Origin: Methanovulcanius yangii
Lineage (GTDB): Archaea; Halobacteriota; Methanomicrobia; Methanomicrobiales; Methanomicrobiaceae
DNA length: 64,000 bases
Direction of reading: 5' to 3'
NCBI RefSeq assembly: GCF_018687785.1
Contig: NZ_LTBL01000001.1
Coordinates: 1,293,780 to 1,357,779, forward strand
Positions within the stretch are counted from its first letter, which is position 1; each line of letters opens with the position of its first letter. Under the pieces are notes generated by a model. That model ran no database searches. It was not told where the DNA came from and was given only the letters and a program-made list of their open reading frames with translations. Positions 3,396 through 14,834 of this stretch are shown here, one piece after another. Position numbers and translations under genes: made by a program.

Positions 3396-4391
3396 TCACT
3401 GTTCCATGATGGTCTCTTCGACCGCAATGCCGAAATGGCGGCCGCCGCGCTGCACATGGCCGAGAACCACATCTCCCGGACGGATGGCCGCAACCGAGAG
3501 GGCGGACCCGTCCGGAGCCACCAGTCGTACCGTCTCTGCGTTCTGGAGAACGGCGCTGAACGTCGTCCCGTCGGGCCCTTCCAGGTCGATCACCACGAGG
3601 GGACGGCGCTCCACCTTCACTCTTCCCACCATCGCCTCGCGTGCCGAACCGTCGGCGGCTGCAACGAGTACGCGGTCGCCCGCCCGGACTTCCGAGAGGT
3701 ATTTGGTCTTGCCGTCCGCCATCATCGCATAGGCATGGACGGCCCCGGCATTCACCCGGAACGGCCGCGGTGCGACATAGGGGTTTTCCAGCGTCTCTGC
3801 ATGGACGAGAAGAAATGCCGACGACGAACTGCCGATGAGCATCCCTTCACCGTCATGCAGAAGAGAACAGGTGTCGACACAGACCCGGTCGCCCATGATG
3901 CCCTGCTCCACGTTCCTGACCGTCAGGGGAACGAGAACACAGGTGGCGGCTGTGCTCTCGGCGACCGCGGCCACCGCCGGTACGACCGCAGGATCATTCG
4001 TCCGGAGGAGAATCCCCGCACAGCCTTTCTCCAAAACAGTCAGTGCGACGCGGGCTTCTTCGGCATCCGTGACGACGGCAATTATCCTGTCGGACTGGGC
4101 GACGAGGTTCTCCAGGGGGATGACCGACCAGTCCGTGGTCGAGACAATGGCATAGCCCTGCCTCGAACGGGCCAGCGCTTCCTCCTCTCCCGCCTTTCCG
4201 TCGATGACGACTTCAAAGACATCCCGGCCCGGTTCGAGATCCCCGCCGGGGGCGATGGTGGTCACTCTGCCGAGTGCGCGGGCCTTTTCCGGATCCTCGA
4301 CAAAGAGCGCCCCTGCACCCCGTTCCAGTGCCGTCGTTGCGATCTCCTTGTTCCACGGGCGCACATCCACCCAGAAGAGCTTCACCGGCAT
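3396..4391 (-). CDS. aroB': 3-dehydroquinate synthase II (archaeal AroB')
   Basis: NAD-dependent oxidative deamination and cyclisation of the ADTH-synthase product to 3-dehydroquinate, the archaeal replacement for DAHP-dependent AroB. The start MPVKLFWVDVRPWNKE at 4391 matches the family N-terminus. The product has 331 residues. Internal motifs include TDWSVIPLENLVAQ and the C-terminal PGDVVLGHVQRGGRHFG. It overlaps the preceding aldolase stop by ten bases and sits directly after it, as expected for the two consecutive pathway enzymes. Confidence 0.93.
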   Translation of the reverse strand: MPVKLFWVDVRPWNKEIATTALERGAGALFVEDPEKARALGRVTTIAPGGDLEPGRDVFEVVIDGKAGEEEALARSRQGYAIVSTTDWSVIPLENLVAQSDRIIAVVTDAEEARVALTVLEKGCAGILLRTNDPAVVPAVAAVAESTAATCVLVPLTVRNVEQGIMGDRVCVDTCSLLHDGEGMLIGSSSSAFLLVHAETLENPYVAPRPFRVNAGAVHAYAMMADGKTKYLSEVRAGDRVLVAAADGSAREAMVGRVKVERRPLVVIDLEGPDGTTFSAVLQNAETVRLVAPDGSALSVAAIRPGDVVLGHVQRGGRHFGIAVEETIMEQ

Positions 4392-5170
4392 TCCTCCAGG
4401 GCGGTGTGCGGATCCTCGCCTCCATGCACCACCCGGCATATGGCACGGATGAACCCTGATGGGTTTTCGCGCTGGAAGGCATTGCGCCCCATCGCAACAC
4501 CCGCAGCCCCGGCACTTATTGCATCACGAATCATGGCAAGCGCCGCGAGGTCATCGCCTTTTTCCCCGCCCGCAACCACCACCGGGATGGCACAGGCGCC
4601 TGTGATGGCGGCAAAACTTGCCGGATCGCCAGTATAGCTGGTCTTGATGATATCGGCACCGAGCTCTTCGGCCACCCGGACACAGTGGCCGATGGCATGC
4701 GGGTCGGTGGGGTCGATATGATCACCCCGTGGGTAGATCATCACGAGAAGCGGCATTCCCCACCGCGTGCATTCCTTTGAGATTGCTCCCGCTTCCTCGA
4801 GCATTCTCGACTCGTTGGATGCTCCCAGATTCACATGAATGGAAACACAATCGGCTCCGAGCGCGATCGCCTCTTCCACCGTGCAGACACTCACCTTGTC
4901 GTTTGGGTCGGGATTCATGCTGGTGCTTGCCGACAGGTGGACGACGAGGCCGATATCCCGGCCATGTTTCCTGTGACCGTGTCGTACCATGCCCTTGTGG
5001 AGAACGATGGCGTTCGCCCCTCCTTCACTGACATCGGATATCACCTGCGACATATCCCCAAGGCCGTATATCTGGCCGAGGGAAAAGCCATGGTCCATCG
5101 GTATGATAACCGACTTCCCGGTGTTTCTGTCCATGATCCGCTCCAGACGTATCGCCTTTCCGATTTCCAT
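4382..5170 (-). CDS. aroA': 2-amino-3,7-dideoxy-D-threo-hept-6-ulosonate (ADTH) synthase, DhnA aldolase family
   Basis: Class I (Schiff-base) aldolase that makes ADTH for the archaeal shikimate route. It has 262 residues, with PMDHG at 24-28, the LHKGMVRHGHR stretch near 57-67 and a probable Schiff-base lysine K176 in IIKTSYTGD. Of the two tandem paralogues, this one looks more like the ADTH synthase of Methanocaldococcus as I recall it (the HKG tripeptide is kept), and it directly precedes DHQ synthase II. The assignment between the two copies is inference; fructose-bisphosphate aldolase is the alternative. Confidence 0.85.
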   Translation of the reverse strand: MEIGKAIRLERIMDRNTGKSVIIPMDHGFSLGQIYGLGDMSQVISDVSEGGANAIVLHKGMVRHGHRKHGRDIGLVVHLSASTSMNPDPNDKVSVCTVEEAIALGADCVSIHVNLGASNESRMLEEAGAISKECTRWGMPLLVMIYPRGDHIDPTDPHAIGHCVRVAEELGADIIKTSYTGDPASFAAITGACAIPVVVAGGEKGDDLAALAMIRDAISAGAAGVAMGRNAFQRENPSGFIRAICRVVHGGEDPHTALEECR

Positions 5171-5171
5171 A

Positions 5172-5963
5172 TTATACCCTCAGAATCTCCATTGCCTCTT
5201 CGGCGCTCCGGTGTTCATGCACGACCATGGCCATTGCCCGTACAAAGAGGTCAGGATTCGGATGCTGAAATGCATTGCGCCCGATGGATATTCCTGCGGC
5301 GCCCGCTTCCATCGCCCCCTCTATCAGTTCGAGGGTGGTGCGATCATCGGTCTTCGACCCGCCGGCGACGACCACCGGCACATGGCAGCCCATCGTCACC
5401 TCACGGAATGAGTCCGGATCGCCGGTGTAGGGAGTCTTGACGATGTCCGCCCCGAGTTCGGATGCGACACGTGCCGCGTGTTTGACGTTCTCCACACCCT
5501 TTTCATCCTCGACCTTTGCTCCGCGCGGGTACATCATGGCAAGGAGCGGCATGCCCCATTCCATACATTCCACAGCAATTCTGCCGAGGTCTGCAAGCAT
5601 CCGTGCTTCCGACTCGGCACCGATGTTGCAGTGCACGCTGACCCCGTCGGCGCCCATCTTCAGGGCATTGGTGACCGTATTTACGATCACCTTGTCATTC
5701 GGGTCGGGTCCGAGGTCGGTGCTTGCAGAGAGATGCAGGATGAGCCCGATGTCCGGCCCTCCCTTCCGATGACCGTGCAATGCAAGTCCTATGTGGCCTA
5801 TTACGGCATTTGCTCCGCCGCGGGCGACCTTGCCGACCGCATCATCAAGGTCGATAAGACCTGCGACAGGGCCCGACGATACCCCGTGGTCCATGGGCAC
5901 GATGACGGTGGTGCCCGTTTCACGGTTCATGATTCTTTCAAGACGAATTTCTTTTCCTCTCAT
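5172..5963 (-). CDS. DhnA-family class I aldolase, tandem paralogue (ADTH synthase or fructose-bisphosphate aldolase)
   Basis: First gene of the aromatic operon. Its 263-residue product aligns end to end with the next gene: PMDHG at 23-27, probable Schiff-base lysine K176 in IVKTPYTGD, and the [14 protein letters not shown] phosphate-binding end. It differs at the HKG position (HIG, residues 57-59). A strong site (GGGGAGGAAT) precedes ATG 5963. It may be a second ADTH synthase, or an aldolase that makes the 6-deoxy-5-ketofructose phosphate precursor or fructose 1,6-bisphosphate. The family is certain, the substrate is not. Confidence 0.8.
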
Positions 5964-9213: not shown

Positions 9214-10236
9214 TCAGCACAGCTTGAAGAGCGGGTGCTCTTCGGTCTGCGGCTGGAGGCCGAATTCTCTTGCTGCCTCGGCGAGTACGATATCGGAGAA
9301 GGCGATTGCAGTCGTTGCTGCTTCACAGTTCTCGATAGGTCCGTACATGATGAGGTCTGCACCAAGGGTTGCTGCCATGATGTTACAGCCGATATCAGGA
9401 GCCGACCATGCAGCCTGCCTGATACCTTCGAAACCGCCAAAGTGGTGGTGGGCCATCTGCTCAAGGAGGATGTCCTTGCCTTCGTACTGCTGGGCAAGAA
9501 CATTTTTCCTCCAGCGCTTCAGCCAGGTCCAGGACACGGTCATGTTGTGGTAGGCACCACCGGTGGGGAGACCGTGGATTGCCTTGCAGGCGAGAATCTC
9601 ACGGAATGAACCGCCGGAACCAAGACCGAGGGGAGTTGCCGCTGTGTCGAGAATGGGGCGGGTGATACCGCACTCTTCTGCGATTGCAAGCATGGACTTT
9701 GCCTGTCCTGCAACGCCACCCTCTGCGAGCACCTTCTCACGGCCGATAACCGAGGCATCGCCAGGGTTGAAGGCGAGGACGATTGCTGCATTGACGTCAC
9801 TGTTCTTCAGTGCCTCAATGTTCTCCGGGAGGATTGAACCATTGATCGAGTTGTAGATTGCACGATCTGCAAGACCAACCTCGGTTACGTACTCACATGC
9901 GTGGGCAAGTGCCCCAGGCATGGATGAGTCCATCAGAAATGCATTCTTGTTGTCAATGGAGTCAAACCATGAGAAGTAGCTCTCAAATGCCTCTCCTGAT
10001 TCAGAGATGATCTGGATGAAGTGTTTGATTCCAGTCTGATCTGAAAGTTCAAGACACCTGTTCCAGAGCGCCTCTGCGCGATCCTTGTCAATTATGCCCT
10101 TCTCATCGTCGATAACAGTCTCGTGCTTGTTATAGAAGATGGAGGCTCCGAGAACCCGCGGGTATTCCCCGGGCTGCCCGCCTATCTTGGTACCGTTAAA
10201 GTCGTGTACCGCCTGCTCTTTTTCAAATTTGAACAT
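9214..10236 (-). CDS. mtrH: tetrahydromethanopterin S-methyltransferase subunit H
   Basis: Peripheral catalytic subunit that transfers the methyl group from methyl-H4MPT to the Co(I) corrinoid on MtrA. The start MFKFEKEQAVHDFNG at 10236 is the family N-terminus and follows GGAGTGACAGGT; a GTG three codons upstream is less likely. The product has 340 residues, somewhat longer than the usual 310-320, with a TIM-barrel fold expected. DSSMPGALAHACEYV and NPGDASVIGREKVL are recognisable family stretches. Last gene of the mtr operon, seven bases after the A-G fusion gene whose corrinoid domain it could also serve. Confidence 0.95.
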   Translation of the reverse strand: MFKFEKEQAVHDFNGTKIGGQPGEYPRVLGASIFYNKHETVIDDEKGIIDKDRAEALWNRCLELSDQTGIKHFIQIISESGEAFESYFSWFDSIDNKNAFLMDSSMPGALAHACEYVTEVGLADRAIYNSINGSILPENIEALKNSDVNAAIVLAFNPGDASVIGREKVLAEGGVAGQAKSMLAIAEECGITRPILDTAATPLGLGSGGSFREILACKAIHGLPTGGAYHNMTVSWTWLKRWRKNVLAQQYEGKDILLEQMAHHHFGGFEGIRQAAWSAPDIGCNIMAATLGADLIMYGPIENCEAATTAIAFSDIVLAEAAREFGLQPQTEEHPLFKLC

Positions 10237-10251
10237 ACCTGTCACTCCTCC

Positions 10252-10992
10252 TCAGATGAATCCGCCTAATTTGGGGAGTAATACCAACAACATCATGAAT
10301 ACGATCAGACCAGCCACAAGGCCATAGAGAATACCGATGTCACGGCCTACCTTGCGTCCGAATCTCTGTGCAAGTTCTGCTTCTGCGAACTCGAGTTTTT
10401 CCTCGATTGCATTGAGTTTTGCCTCAATTTCAAGGAACTGCGGGTTTGCAGTTGCCGATACTGCGCCACCGGCGCCGCCCTCTTCCTCGGACACTTCGAC
10501 AACCATCGGGTCGGCATCAAATGCACCAGGGTCCTTGCCCTCGCACTCTTTGATCTTGCCGGTGATTGCGCCCATGTCCTCGGATTCCATGATATCGATG
10601 ATCTCGACCTGCTGCTGGAACCGCTCGATTGCGGCTGCATCGAGGTTCTCGATGAATGCGATTGCACCCTGTGAACCGACGATCTTTCCGCCTTCGACAC
10701 CATTCTCGTGCAGTGCCTTGAGCGACTGACCGGAAAGGTGACCCTTCACTTCTGTTCCACAGAAGAGGATGAAGCGGATGTTCGGGTTCGATATGGTGTT
10801 TGCAATCAGCTTCTCGAGACCAAGGTTCTCCGTCTTACAGGAACCACAGATTGCGGCGCCTGCATCACAGATACCCTGCTCATCCAGGTGAGACCCGAAG
10901 GTACAGACTGCAACACAGCTCTCTGCGTTTCCGGAGTGATAATCGCCTGCGATAATAGGCCATCCGGATGCCGGAGACTTTTTCGCTGCCAT
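10252..10992 (-). CDS. mtrG: MtrA corrinoid domain fused to MtrG (occupies the mtrG position)
   Basis: Residues 3-178 match the MtrA encoded by 11206-11931 almost exactly, including the candidate cobalt-ligand His85 in EVKGHLSGQ. The C-terminal 68 residues are not the MtrA tail: [17 protein letters not shown] followed by [13 protein letters not shown] and one membrane helix are the MtrG signature. Gene order E-D-C-B-A-F-here-H places it exactly at mtrG. It is therefore not a simple mtrA duplicate but an MtrA(soluble)-MtrG fusion, which would bring an extra corrinoid domain to the Na+-pumping methyltransferase. Two bases separate it from mtrF. Confidence 0.88.
10478..10971 (-). repeat. 494-bp perfect direct repeat, copy 1 (within the A-G fusion gene)
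   Basis: I compared it base by base with 11417-11910 and found no difference. The identity starts and stops sharply: one side breaks in the GGAGG linker codons, the other in the third codon region after the start. Synonymous positions are also identical, so the copies are very recent or kept uniform by gene conversion. Confidence 0.95.
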
Positions 10993-10993
10993 A

Positions 10994-11200
10994 TCAGATA
11001 CCTCCCAGCATCAGGCCCGGAACGAGCACAAGGATGAGTGCAACGATAAGGCCTATTGCAAAGCCCATGACACCGCCCGACTGGATTGCAGACTCAAGCT
11101 TGTTGGTACGGGCGAGAATCTGGCCCTTGTACTTGATGTCCGACATGATCTGGTCGATGGCAGCGGTGCGAATTGGTCCGGATTGATTTCCTTCTGCCAT
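10994..11200 (-). CDS. mtrF: tetrahydromethanopterin S-methyltransferase subunit F
   Basis: Small membrane-anchored subunit of the Mtr complex, 68 residues. An N-terminal cytoplasmic helix ([20 protein letters not shown], about 16-35) is typical of MtrF, and a single C-terminal transmembrane helix ([17 protein letters not shown]) follows. It lies between mtrA and the A-G fusion gene with gaps of five and one bases. Confidence 0.92.
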
Positions 11201-11205
11201 TTACA

Positions 11206-11931
11206 TCACCCTATCAACAGGAATCCAAGCAGGATGAACGAAATGATCAACCCAATCATGATTCCTTCAATTTTTCCTGAATACACACCGGCCGCATAGC
11301 GGTCACGGTATCCCATGCTGGTCACCATCATCTGGATGGTCTTCATCCGGGCATGGATGAGTGCAAGCTCAGCGGTCAGGGGGACTTCCTCGCCCGCACC
11401 TTCTCCACCGGCGCCACCCTCTTCCTCGGACACTTCGACAACCATCGGGTCGGCATCAAATGCACCAGGGTCCTTGCCCTCGCACTCTTTGATCTTGCCG
11501 GTGATTGCGCCCATGTCCTCGGATTCCATGATATCGATGATCTCGACCTGCTGCTGGAACCGCTCGATTGCGGCTGCATCGAGGTTCTCGATGAATGCGA
11601 TTGCACCCTGTGAACCGACGATCTTTCCGCCTTCGACACCATTCTCGTGCAGTGCCTTGAGCGACTGACCGGAAAGGTGACCCTTCACTTCTGTTCCACA
11701 GAAGAGGATGAAGCGGATGTTCGGGTTCGATATGGTGTTTGCAATCAGCTTCTCGAGACCAAGGTTCTCCGTCTTACAGGAACCACAGATTGCGGCGCCT
11801 GCATCACAGATACCCTGCTCATCCAGGTGAGACCCGAAGGTACAGACTGCAACACAGCTCTCTGCGTTTCCGGAGTGATAATCGCCTGCGATAATAGGCC
11901 ATCCGGATGCTGGTGATTTCTTGTTTGCCAT
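11206..11931 (-). CDS. mtrA: tetrahydromethanopterin S-methyltransferase subunit A
   Basis: Corrinoid-carrying subunit that accepts the methyl group from MtrH and passes it to coenzyme M. The 241-residue product has the soluble corrinoid domain (residues 1-178, His85 in KGHLSGQ as probable lower ligand) and the canonical tail: [19 protein letters not shown], then GKIEG and one C-terminal transmembrane helix. This is the authentic MtrA; the near-identical domain at 10252-10992 has a different tail. RBS GGTGGTGAAAG precedes ATG 11931. Confidence 0.95.
11417..11910 (-). repeat. 494-bp perfect direct repeat, copy 2 (within mtrA)
   Basis: Partner of 10478-10971, offset by exactly 939 bases. It covers nearly all of the soluble corrinoid domain of MtrA. 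Confidence 0.95.
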
Positions 11932-11942
11932 CTTTCACCACC

Positions 11943-12227
11943 TCAAATGAACCCAAACGCGATTACTCCCGCGATGAAGAGACCGACTGCAAGGCCATAC
12001 CACATTGCCGTGACACTTCCTGCATAGAGGAGTGATTTCTCACGGTTGGGGAACGACGCCTTGAAGTTGCCTTCACCGGAAAGCATGTTCACAATGTCAT
12101 CTGCAATTTTGTCGAGCTCGTCGACCCGCTCGATAACCGGGCCAAGAGATGCTCCGGCAGTGGTCACAAGACCGACGATGGGGTCAGCGACGAGTCCGAA
12201 CTCAGGCAGTACTTCTACATATCCCAT
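11943..12227 (-). CDS. mtrB: tetrahydromethanopterin S-methyltransferase subunit B
   Basis: Small Mtr subunit, 94 residues. It has a soluble N-terminal part (EFGLVADPIVGLV) and a C-terminal transmembrane helix (SVTAMWYGLAVGLFIAGVIAFG). Position between mtrC and mtrA with short spacers matches the conserved mtr order, and GGAGGTGAGTAAG precedes the start. Confidence 0.92.
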   Translation of the reverse strand: MGYVEVLPEFGLVADPIVGLVTTAGASLGPVIERVDELDKIADDIVNMLSGEGNFKASFPNREKSLLYAGSVTAMWYGLAVGLFIAGVIAFGFI

Positions 12228-12229
12228 TC

Positions 12230-13090
12230 TTACTCACCTCCAACCTCTCGGATCGGCTTGGAGTCAAGCCAGTCAAATGCGTCACGCTTCGAGAGCTTGA
12301 TGTACTCGCTGTAAGACCAGCCCCAGAGAATGACGGAGATCGCAAAGGAAATCACGACTGCAAAGAGGCCAAGGAATGCAACGGACATGATTGCAACTAC
12401 AAGCATGCTCAGGAACCCGCACTCGAGAGCGCACATCTGGGTCCTGTCCCAGGATTCGTTCGGGCCAAGGCAGGCGTTGAACGGGTGCTGGATTGCGATT
12501 GCACCAAGCATGAAGATCGTTGCAAGCACACAGCCTCCGATGACGGACGCCGCGTAGCTGGTGACTTCCATGCCGAGGAACGAGACGGATCCTGCAATCA
12601 GGTCAGTGAAGATAAACGAACCGGAGACCATTGCGGTGAATCCGAGCATCGTCAGGGAACCGACGATGGTCAGCTCGGCAATCATGCGGGTCATGACCGG
12701 GATGTTCATGTTCAGAACCTTGTCTGCAATAAATCCGAGGATTGCTCCGATAATTGCTGCAATGACGACACAGCCGATAGGGACTGCAAGCGGGGAGATT
12801 CCCGCGAGTTTCGTTGCAAAGAGGAACGCGATGACACCGGACCCGAGCGAGATCATACCCGCTGACGGGACACCGGTACCAAGACCATAGCTGCACAGCG
12901 TCTTGATGGAGTCAGTACCCCACCACAGTGCGATGACTGCTGCAAGGCCGCCGAAGAAGGCAAAGACCTCAGTAGACATCAGGCTGTTGAGGTAGACAAT
13001 GTACAGACATACCAGTGCTCCGACAACGCCGATGCCCAGCATTTTGTCATGGGGCATGCCGCCTTCGGATGCTTCAATTTTAACCGACAT
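12230..13090 (-). CDS. mtrC: tetrahydromethanopterin S-methyltransferase subunit C
   Basis: Integral membrane subunit of the sodium-pumping Mtr complex. The 286-residue product is almost entirely hydrophobic, with about seven predicted transmembrane segments; HPFNACLGPNESWDRTQ near 200-216 is a conserved loop. It follows mtrD by eleven bases and precedes mtrB by two. Confidence 0.93.
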   Translation of the reverse strand: MSVKIEASEGGMPHDKMLGIGVVGALVCLYIVYLNSLMSTEVFAFFGGLAAVIALWWGTDSIKTLCSYGLGTGVPSAGMISLGSGVIAFLFATKLAGISPLAVPIGCVVIAAIIGAILGFIADKVLNMNIPVMTRMIAELTIVGSLTMLGFTAMVSGSFIFTDLIAGSVSFLGMEVTSYAASVIGGCVLATIFMLGAIAIQHPFNACLGPNESWDRTQMCALECGFLSMLVVAIMSVAFLGLFAVVISFAISVILWGWSYSEYIKLSKRDAFDWLDSKPIREVGGE

Positions 13091-13101: not shown

Positions 13102-13929
13102 TCAGATAACCACCAGAAGAATTGCAAACAGACCGCAGACTGCGGAAGCTGCACTTGATCCGATAACTGCACGGGGCCAGCGCTTGAACTTCGGGTCGTG
13201 CGGACCTTCGATGGTACCGGTAATGTTGTACGCGGTCAGAACAGCCGCAACGAGGAACATACCGACAGCAAAGATACCGGCGAGAGAGACAGCAAGAATG
13301 CTCATGCCCTCGGTGACACCGAGGAACGAGGGGAGTGCCTCCTCATAGACCTGGAGAAGTTCGTAATAGATGAGCGTACCGCCGAGACCACCGAAGAAAC
13401 CACCGATGACACCTCCGACATAGGAGATGAACGGGAGGCCGTGACCTTCAGTACCCTGTGACTTGTATGCAGGGAAGGTGTCGCCCGTGATCGGGTCCTT
13501 GTCAACCTTACCGGATGCAGCGGGAATACCCATGGCGTAGACGTAGACAACATTCACCATCAGACAGGTGATTGCCATCAGAAGTGCACCGCCGATTGCA
13601 CCTGCGGCAAGAGAGAGAGCGAGACCGAATTCAGCTGCCCATGCGCCTCCGAAGAGACCTGCAAGGCCACCACCGGCTGCAAGCATTGCGACACCGGTTG
13701 CAATACCGGGTGCCTGTCCCATAGCTGCGGGAGCACCACCGACCGGCACGAAGTGCACACCGAATGAGATGAGCACGCCGCCGATGATAACACCGATGAG
13801 CGGAACGAGAGCTGCAGGGTAGGCGACAAAGACGACAGCAACAGCGACAAGGACAATGACAAGCGCGATAAGCGAAGCCGTCGGGTTGATGCCTTCTCCT
13901 CCGGAAGATCCACCACCAAGTGCGCTCAT
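13102..13929 (-). CDS. mtrD: tetrahydromethanopterin S-methyltransferase subunit D
   Basis: Integral membrane subunit of Mtr, 275 residues with about six to seven hydrophobic segments. I placed the start at ATG 13929 (MSALGGGSSGGEG), which overlaps the mtrE stop as ATGA; a longer frame upstream only mirrors mtrE. Motifs such as SFGVHFVPVGGAPAAMGQ and GHGLPFISYVGGVIGG are typical of MtrD. Confidence 0.93.
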   Translation of the reverse strand: MSALGGGSSGGEGINPTASLIALVIVLVAVAVVFVAYPAALVPLIGVIIGGVLISFGVHFVPVGGAPAAMGQAPGIATGVAMLAAGGGLAGLFGGAWAAEFGLALSLAAGAIGGALLMAITCLMVNVVYVYAMGIPAASGKVDKDPITGDTFPAYKSQGTEGHGLPFISYVGGVIGGFFGGLGGTLIYYELLQVYEEALPSFLGVTEGMSILAVSLAGIFAVGMFLVAAVLTAYNITGTIEGPHDPKFKRWPRAVIGSSAASAVCGLFAILLVVI

Positions 13930-14834
13930 GCTGCTGCCTCCTCTTCTGCTGCCTCTTCCGTGTACGGACCGTAGGTCTTGCGTGCCCAGGTCTCTACATA
14001 GCGGTCGATTACCATGAAGACGATAATTACTACAACACCGGCGATAACCGCACCCCATCCAGCCGCAAACGGCTCGAAGAGGATCGTACGCCAGAGTTCA
14101 AAGAATACAATGAGACCGAAACAGATACCCGATGCAGGGCCTGCGCCCTTCGAGGTAAACCACCCGTTGTCAAGGGAGCTCCTCTGACCTGCTTCAGCAT
14201 ACCGGACAATGTCTCCGGATGCAGAAATGGGCAGACCCGCGCCGAAGGCATACTTCTGGTACTGGCGTTCCTTTCCGTAGAACGGATTACCGGTTGCAGA
14301 ACCTGCCGCACCAAGCGCAATACCCCAGACGATACCCATCAGGGGAAGGGGGAACGGGTGTCCAAGTGCTTCAATCATAAGGAAACACATAGTTACGGTC
14401 GCAAAGATGGCCACAAATGCGTGTGCCATAGTCACGGATGTCACCGATTTTAAGATATCGATGTACACCGGCTGTTCAAACTTTGCAAGACTTGCCGTAC
14501 GGCCGAGATATGCAGTTGTGGCGTACACGCCCTGCACAAACACTGCAACCGCCGAACCAATGACGAGAGCAAGAATTGCATTAAACTGAATCGCCATCAG
14601 CGCCCATGCGACGCCGGCAGCCAATGCCACCCAGAGACCATACGCAGGGGGTTCACCGGATACAGCTTTGTTGTATATGCGGTGAACGTATCCCATCTGC
14701 GGAGCAAGCTGAACCTGTGAGTTCGGGTCACCCTGTGATCCGATATCAGATTCAGTATCCTCCGCTGCGCCGGCCACGGTGGCAAGAGCGCCAGCTAAAG
14801 CGCTGATACCGATGCCAAACAGTATTTCTTCCAT
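13926..14834 (-). CDS. mtrE: tetrahydromethanopterin S-methyltransferase subunit E
   Basis: Large integral membrane subunit of Mtr and the first gene of the operon. The product has 302 residues with about six or seven transmembrane segments and the long loop MGYVHRIYNKAVSGEPPAYG near 48-67. The C-terminus ends in an acidic, Ala/Glu-rich tail. GGAGGATGCCTGA precedes ATG 14834; the promoter lies within the next 100 bases. Confidence 0.94.
   Translation of the reverse strand: MEEILFGIGISALAGALATVAGAAEDTESDIGSQGDPNSQVQLAPQMGYVHRIYNKAVSGEPPAYGLWVALAAGVAWALMAIQFNAILALVIGSAVAVFVQGVYATTAYLGRTASLAKFEQPVYIDILKSVTSVTMAHAFVAIFATVTMCFLMIEALGHPFPLPLMGIVWGIALGAAGSATGNPFYGKERQYQKYAFGAGLPISASGDIVRYAEAGQRSSLDNGWFTSKGAGPASGICFGLIVFFELWRTILFEPFAAGWGAVIAGVVVIIVFMVIDRYVETWARKTYGPYTEEAAEEEAAA

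Follow-up and report, generated by a model that had tools for sequence, protein, structure and literature searches.

We analyzed a window of 64,000 nucleotides from Methanovulcanius yangii, which contains a complete mtr operon on the minus strand in the order mtrE, mtrD, mtrC, mtrB, mtrA, mtrF, MtrA-MtrG fusion gene, and mtrH (Table 1). Mtr is the enzyme that generates the sodium gradient of methanogens, and the MtrA domain is the vitamin B12-carrying part of this key methane-making enzyme. Profile matches identified the ORF that follows mtrF as an MtrA-MtrG fusion and not as a second plain mtrA; here, the canonical gene is called mtrA-1 and the fusion gene mtrA-2.

Table 1. Genes of the mtr operon and repeat-associated features (window positions)
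Feature	Position	Strand	Evidence
mtrH	9214..10245	-	PF02007, 318 bits
mtrA-2 (246 aa), fusion of a corrinoid domain with MtrG	10252..10992	-	PF04208, residues 4-172; PF04210 (MtrG), residues 184-237, 80.7 bits
Repeat copy 2 (corrinoid domain of mtrA-2)	10478..10971	-	Exact 494-bp identity with copy 1; PF04208, 281 bits
First seven codons of mtrA-2, unhomogenized despite homology with mtrA-1; upstream conversion-tract edge	10972..10992	-	Only 2 of 7 codons match 11911-11931
mtrF (68 aa), separating the copies	10994..11200	-	PF09472, 69.5 bits
mtrA-1 (241 aa), corrinoid domain and own C-terminal membrane anchor	11206..11931	-	TIGR01111, 337.5 bits, above cut-off
Repeat copy 1 (corrinoid domain of mtrA-1)	11417..11910	-	Exact 494-bp identity with copy 2; PF04208, 281 bits
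Codons 1-7 of mtrA-1, counterpart edge	11911..11931	-	Comparison with 10972..10992
mtrB	11943..12227	-	PF05440, 112.6 bits
mtrC	12230..13090	-	PF04211, 225.8 bits
mtrD (start codon not determined)	13102..13938	-	PF04207, 311.5 bits
mtrE	13926..14834	-	PF04206, 427.7 bits

Both repeat copies lie inside the operon, as the earlier note on this DNA had placed them, at an offset of 939 bp; the 494 bp are the longest exact match, and chance is excluded as its origin. No third copy was found in the genome itself (2.29 Mb in two contigs), which has just these two, 100% identical. Each copy spans codons 8 to ~172 of its ORF, corresponding to the Pfam MtrA domain. The claim that the identity extends to synonymous sites was confirmed, all 73 comparable fourfold degenerate sites being the same in both copies. 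Selection alone could be proposed to keep the domains alike without conversion, in line with the low dN/dS between the copies in diverged lineages (see below), but selection at the protein level cannot explain synonymous identity, and we consider this proposal extremely improbable.

The earlier note had described sharp repeat ends at the domain edges. The identity does correspond to the MtrA domain, but homology reaches slightly beyond its ends: codons 1 to 7 of the two copies are homologous, yet five of the seven are unlike, four of these five being synonymous differences. Past about codon 172, the two genes no longer share a sequence, one continuing into the MtrA anchor and the other into MtrG. 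Because these tails are not homologous, conversion would be unable to spread into them, which accounts for the sharp ends. A mobile element or a special recombination signal at the repeat ends was also considered and rejected, as the window contains no further direct repeat of ≥40 bp besides the 494-bp pair; since the repeat stops close to where the homology stops, no end signal is needed.

The MtrA-MtrG fusion and its long-lasting conversion were described by Wang et al. in 2015 (G3; PMC4632066) for the mtrA-1/mtrA-2b pair of Methanomicrobiales. The window has a single-frame MtrA-MtrG gene flanked by mtrF and mtrH, its mtrEDCBAFGH operon is canonical in other respects, the MtrA domain is 100% identical between the window paralogues compared with 92.8% to the nearest genome, and the host belongs to the Methanomicrobiales. 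It resembles the published pairs in architecture, operon position, homogenized MtrA domain, and different membrane tails, and the same explanation applies; the window represents another species, with no difference in kind. The finding is already known, and this locus is an ordinary, well-preserved member of the published case (PMC4632066). Our survey differs in covering 94 pairs compared with eight in that study and in showing lineages in which conversion has largely stopped.

The Pfam MtrA model had matches in 190 of the 232 genomes searched across the order. The survey set consisted of the 94 Methanomicrobiales genomes, one per species, in which both domains were readable whole. In all 94, mtrF lies between the domains, copy 1 continues into the MtrA anchor, and copy 2 continues into MtrG (one tail each was unreadable in G104 and G107). 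The spacing between the copies is 926 to 956 bp, apart from 1,009 bp in G153, where there is a run of N. Nothing of this set (both domains, anchor, and mtrF) is missing from any of the 25 single-contig genomes examined. The pair occurs in Methanogenium, Methanoculleus, Methanocalculus, Methanocorpusculum, Methanolinea, Methanoregula, Methanospirillum, Methanomicrobium, and Methanofollis. As the same architecture is present throughout, the order cannot be older than the duplication and fusion. Third MtrA matches in G192, G207, and other genomes were set aside as distant paralogues outside the operon.

Within a genome, the two domains share a mean nucleotide identity of 94.4% (median, 96.4%) and are identical in the core in 9 of the 94 genomes. 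Between genomes, mtrA-1 orthologues share a mean of 74.3%, and mtrA-1 shares 74.1% with the mtrA-2 genes of other genomes. At fourfold degenerate sites, the copies are 86.7% identical within genomes versus 41.6% between genomes. We called a site concerted when the two copies of a species agreed and the species differed. In the domain core, comparison of the window species (G000) with its nearest relative, the sister genome G123 of the same genus, gave 30 concerted sites and no by-copy sites. In codons 1 to 7, two by-copy synonymous sites (third positions of codons 5 and 6) are common to both species, and the copies must therefore predate the split between them. Only the domain core was overwritten after that split; no such border would result from a fresh duplication. 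The MtrA domain is not unusually slow, since it differs by ~7% between these two species, compared with 4 to 10% in the neighboring genes.

In the tree, the two copies of one species are sisters in 59 of the 94 genomes, and in most of the remaining genomes they group with both copies of a few close relatives in a small clade. A tree with all mtrA-1 sequences as one clade was rejected for a set of 28 genomes (p-AU, 5e-109), in a test that used a quick tree and left five sets of identical rows free.

The comparison of related genomes, proposed in the earlier note, thus yielded copies that are near-identical within each species and differ between species. Because the architecture is also order-wide, the duplication is old and the homogenization recurrent. 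That note had offered two explanations, very recent duplication and ongoing gene conversion, and the concerted site patterns, identities, and trees, compared across species with one genome each, support gene conversion. A strain-specific, very recent duplication would fit the 100% identity over 494 bp in the genome, but it is refuted by the same fusion at the same place throughout the order and by codons 1 to 7, which are homologous but diverged and share their by-copy sites with G123; moreover, independent duplications and fusions would need to recur in dozens of species. We regard it as exceedingly unlikely. At the level of sequence comparison, the site patterns show that recurrent gene conversion, acting only within the shared domain, keeps the two domains alike.

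We assign a probability of about 0.95 to the reading that the MtrA corrinoid domain underwent an old duplication and fusion, that conversion has recurred in the shared domain, and that both domains are probably working carriers. The duplication and fusion left the corrinoid domain once in canonical mtrA and once at the front of MtrG, and homogenization is limited to the shared domain, the MtrA anchor and MtrG tails being nonhomologous. We infer a recombination step behind the homogenization, for which the likely route would be homologous recombination, either from copy to copy within one chromosome or across genome copies. A review (PMC4056108), citing Hildenbrand 2011, states that conversion has been shown to equalize genome copies in methanogenic archaea. 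The locus offers a clean textbook case, with one domain homogenized across two genes while the other domains stay different.

Exact repeats this long do break short-read assemblies, and the suspicion of an assembly error, raised in the earlier note, is justified in general. Contigs end inside the repeat in at least nine genomes (G001, G015, G018, G078, G083, G090, G113, G160, and G223), the next copy runs off the contig in G161, and runs of N lie inside copy 1 in G062 and G079. Genomes with a single MtrA were considered as biological losses, but nearly all of those checked proved to be contig ends in the repeat, run-offs, or N-runs. The repeat regularly breaks or collapses Methanomicrobiales assemblies, and for this reason, a missing mtrF or a missing mtrA copy in a metagenome-assembled genome (MAG) is not to be read as biology. 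For the window, however, the suspicion does not hold, as unique sequence separates the copies. They have two different tails, mtrF lies between them, their codons 1 to 7 are unlike, and the same structure is found in 25 single-contig genomes and in the published study (PMC4632066). The likelihood that one copy is a false duplicate is negligible.

Two assemblies lack the MtrA anchor and mtrF and have the order mtrB-MtrA domain-MtrG-mtrH: G145 (Methanolinea sp. UBA275; L153:1843-2541) and G164 (Methanoregula sp. PD_MW2_B; L155:1608-2330). The MtrA-MtrG frame is intact in each, and mtrF was not found elsewhere in either assembly. Recombination between the repeats had been suggested to delete mtrF, and these two structures correspond to the predicted product, but such an event removes the MtrA anchor helix as well. 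Both genomes are fragmentary MAGs (about 70 and 810 contigs, respectively), and the structure was seen in none of the 25 single-contig genomes examined. Since all 25 keep everything, assembly collapse, with the short loop dropped, is the most likely origin. It is improbable that the two structures are real recombination deletions, which would mean that Mtr works without the anchor helix and MtrF or that such alleles persist in populations.

Still less probable, in our estimation, is a phase switch in which part of the population loses the MtrA anchor and mtrF through recombination between the copies. G145 and G164 show exactly such a structure, with its intact frame and without mtrF, but a collapsed repeat in a fragmentary MAG gives the same picture, and the 25 single-contig genomes examined are uniformly intact. 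In addition, the MtrA helix that would be lost is the stalk core in the solved complex (PMC10998594), and both mtrA paralogues are cited as essential for growth and/or methanogenesis (PMC4632066). Because the deletion would be irreversible, would remove this core helix, and would affect paralogues cited as essential, the phase-like loss of mtrF put forward in the earlier note is not supported.

In several lineages, conversion has largely stopped. The Methanospirillum genomes G197 and G199 gave 62 by-copy and no concerted sites, and the Methanomicrobium genomes G115 and G117 gave 56 and none, respectively. The by-copy pattern was also seen in the genome pairs G120/G121, G111/G112, and G024/G043 and in some Methanocorpusculum. 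In the by-copy lineages, dS between the copies is ~0.5 to 1.7 (near or above 1 in many), and in the more diverged ones the copies share 84 to 91% protein identity. The dN/dS ratio between diverged copies is only 0.03 to 0.13, and therefore both domains are constrained independently of conversion. Both copies from a group of six Methanospirillum species fall in a single clade and sort by copy inside it, which suggests that homogenization ended there before the six species diverged. According to the abstract of the 2015 paper (PMC4632066), conversion has taken place throughout the history of these methanogens; in our wider sample, it is neither universal nor continuous across the order, and this sample suggests that it is episodic. 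No report of stopped or episodic mtrA conversion was found in the literature searched, which comprised open-licence papers. The largely stopped conversion in several lineages is a modest extension of the published account; a further addition is that the repeat breaks assemblies. The lineages with stopped conversion would be the natural place to seek specialization of the two domains.

The cobalt-ligating histidine of MtrA is His84 in M. marburgensis (PMC4915002). The corresponding residue, His85, is present in both window copies and in 188 of 188 domains. Purifying selection and the retention of this residue suggest that both domains are probably working methyl carriers, and both would bind a cobamide and act in methyl transfer. 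In the central stalk of the solved Mtr complexes, the MtrA anchor helix lies beside MtrG, with the N-termini cytoplasmic; the soluble domain of MtrA moves and is not visible in the 2024 map (PMC10998594). As the N-terminus of MtrG is cytoplasmic, a second corrinoid domain fused to it would be on the correct side, and we infer that an Mtr trimer could have up to six corrinoid domains instead of three. Chains A and G of the Mtr structures 8q3v (PMC10998594) and 9qtq (M. mazei; PMC12774963) match both halves of the fusion; in these complexes, MtrA and MtrG are separate and there are three corrinoid domains per trimer, whereas the window encodes a fused second domain. A text search of these two papers gave no mention of an MtrA-MtrG fusion.

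A 2018 survey lists mtrA among the rare cases of long-lasting concerted evolution (PMC6053082). The homogenization of a duplicated gene is likewise long-lasting in tuf and other concertedly evolving prokaryotic genes (PMC6053082), but only one domain is homogenized in mtrA because the tails differ. A closer parallel is mtrA-2a, the MtrA-MtrF fusion of Methanococcales and Methanocella arvoryzae, in which a second MtrA domain, also homogenized, is placed on a small stalk subunit; the partner is MtrF, in contrast to MtrG in the window, and this fusion was independently derived according to the same study (PMC4632066). Outside the order, tandem MtrA matches ~0.8 kb apart were seen in two genomes of family f14 (G239:C1:1028881-1030189, with equal scores, and G257:C14:68243-69534). 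They are as expected for the Methanocella-type MtrA-MtrF fusion, judged on the MtrA domains; another f14 genome, G248, has one MtrA copy only of such a type.

Another tandem duplicate in the window belongs to the start of the archaeal shikimate route. Two adjacent genes on the minus strand (4382-5170 and 5172-5963) encode 2-amino-3,7-dideoxy-D-threo-hept-6-ulosonate synthases (TIGR01949, both above cut-off) with ~55% protein identity, the pair being without homogenization, unlike mtrA, and are followed by a gene for 3-dehydroquinate synthase II (3396-4439).
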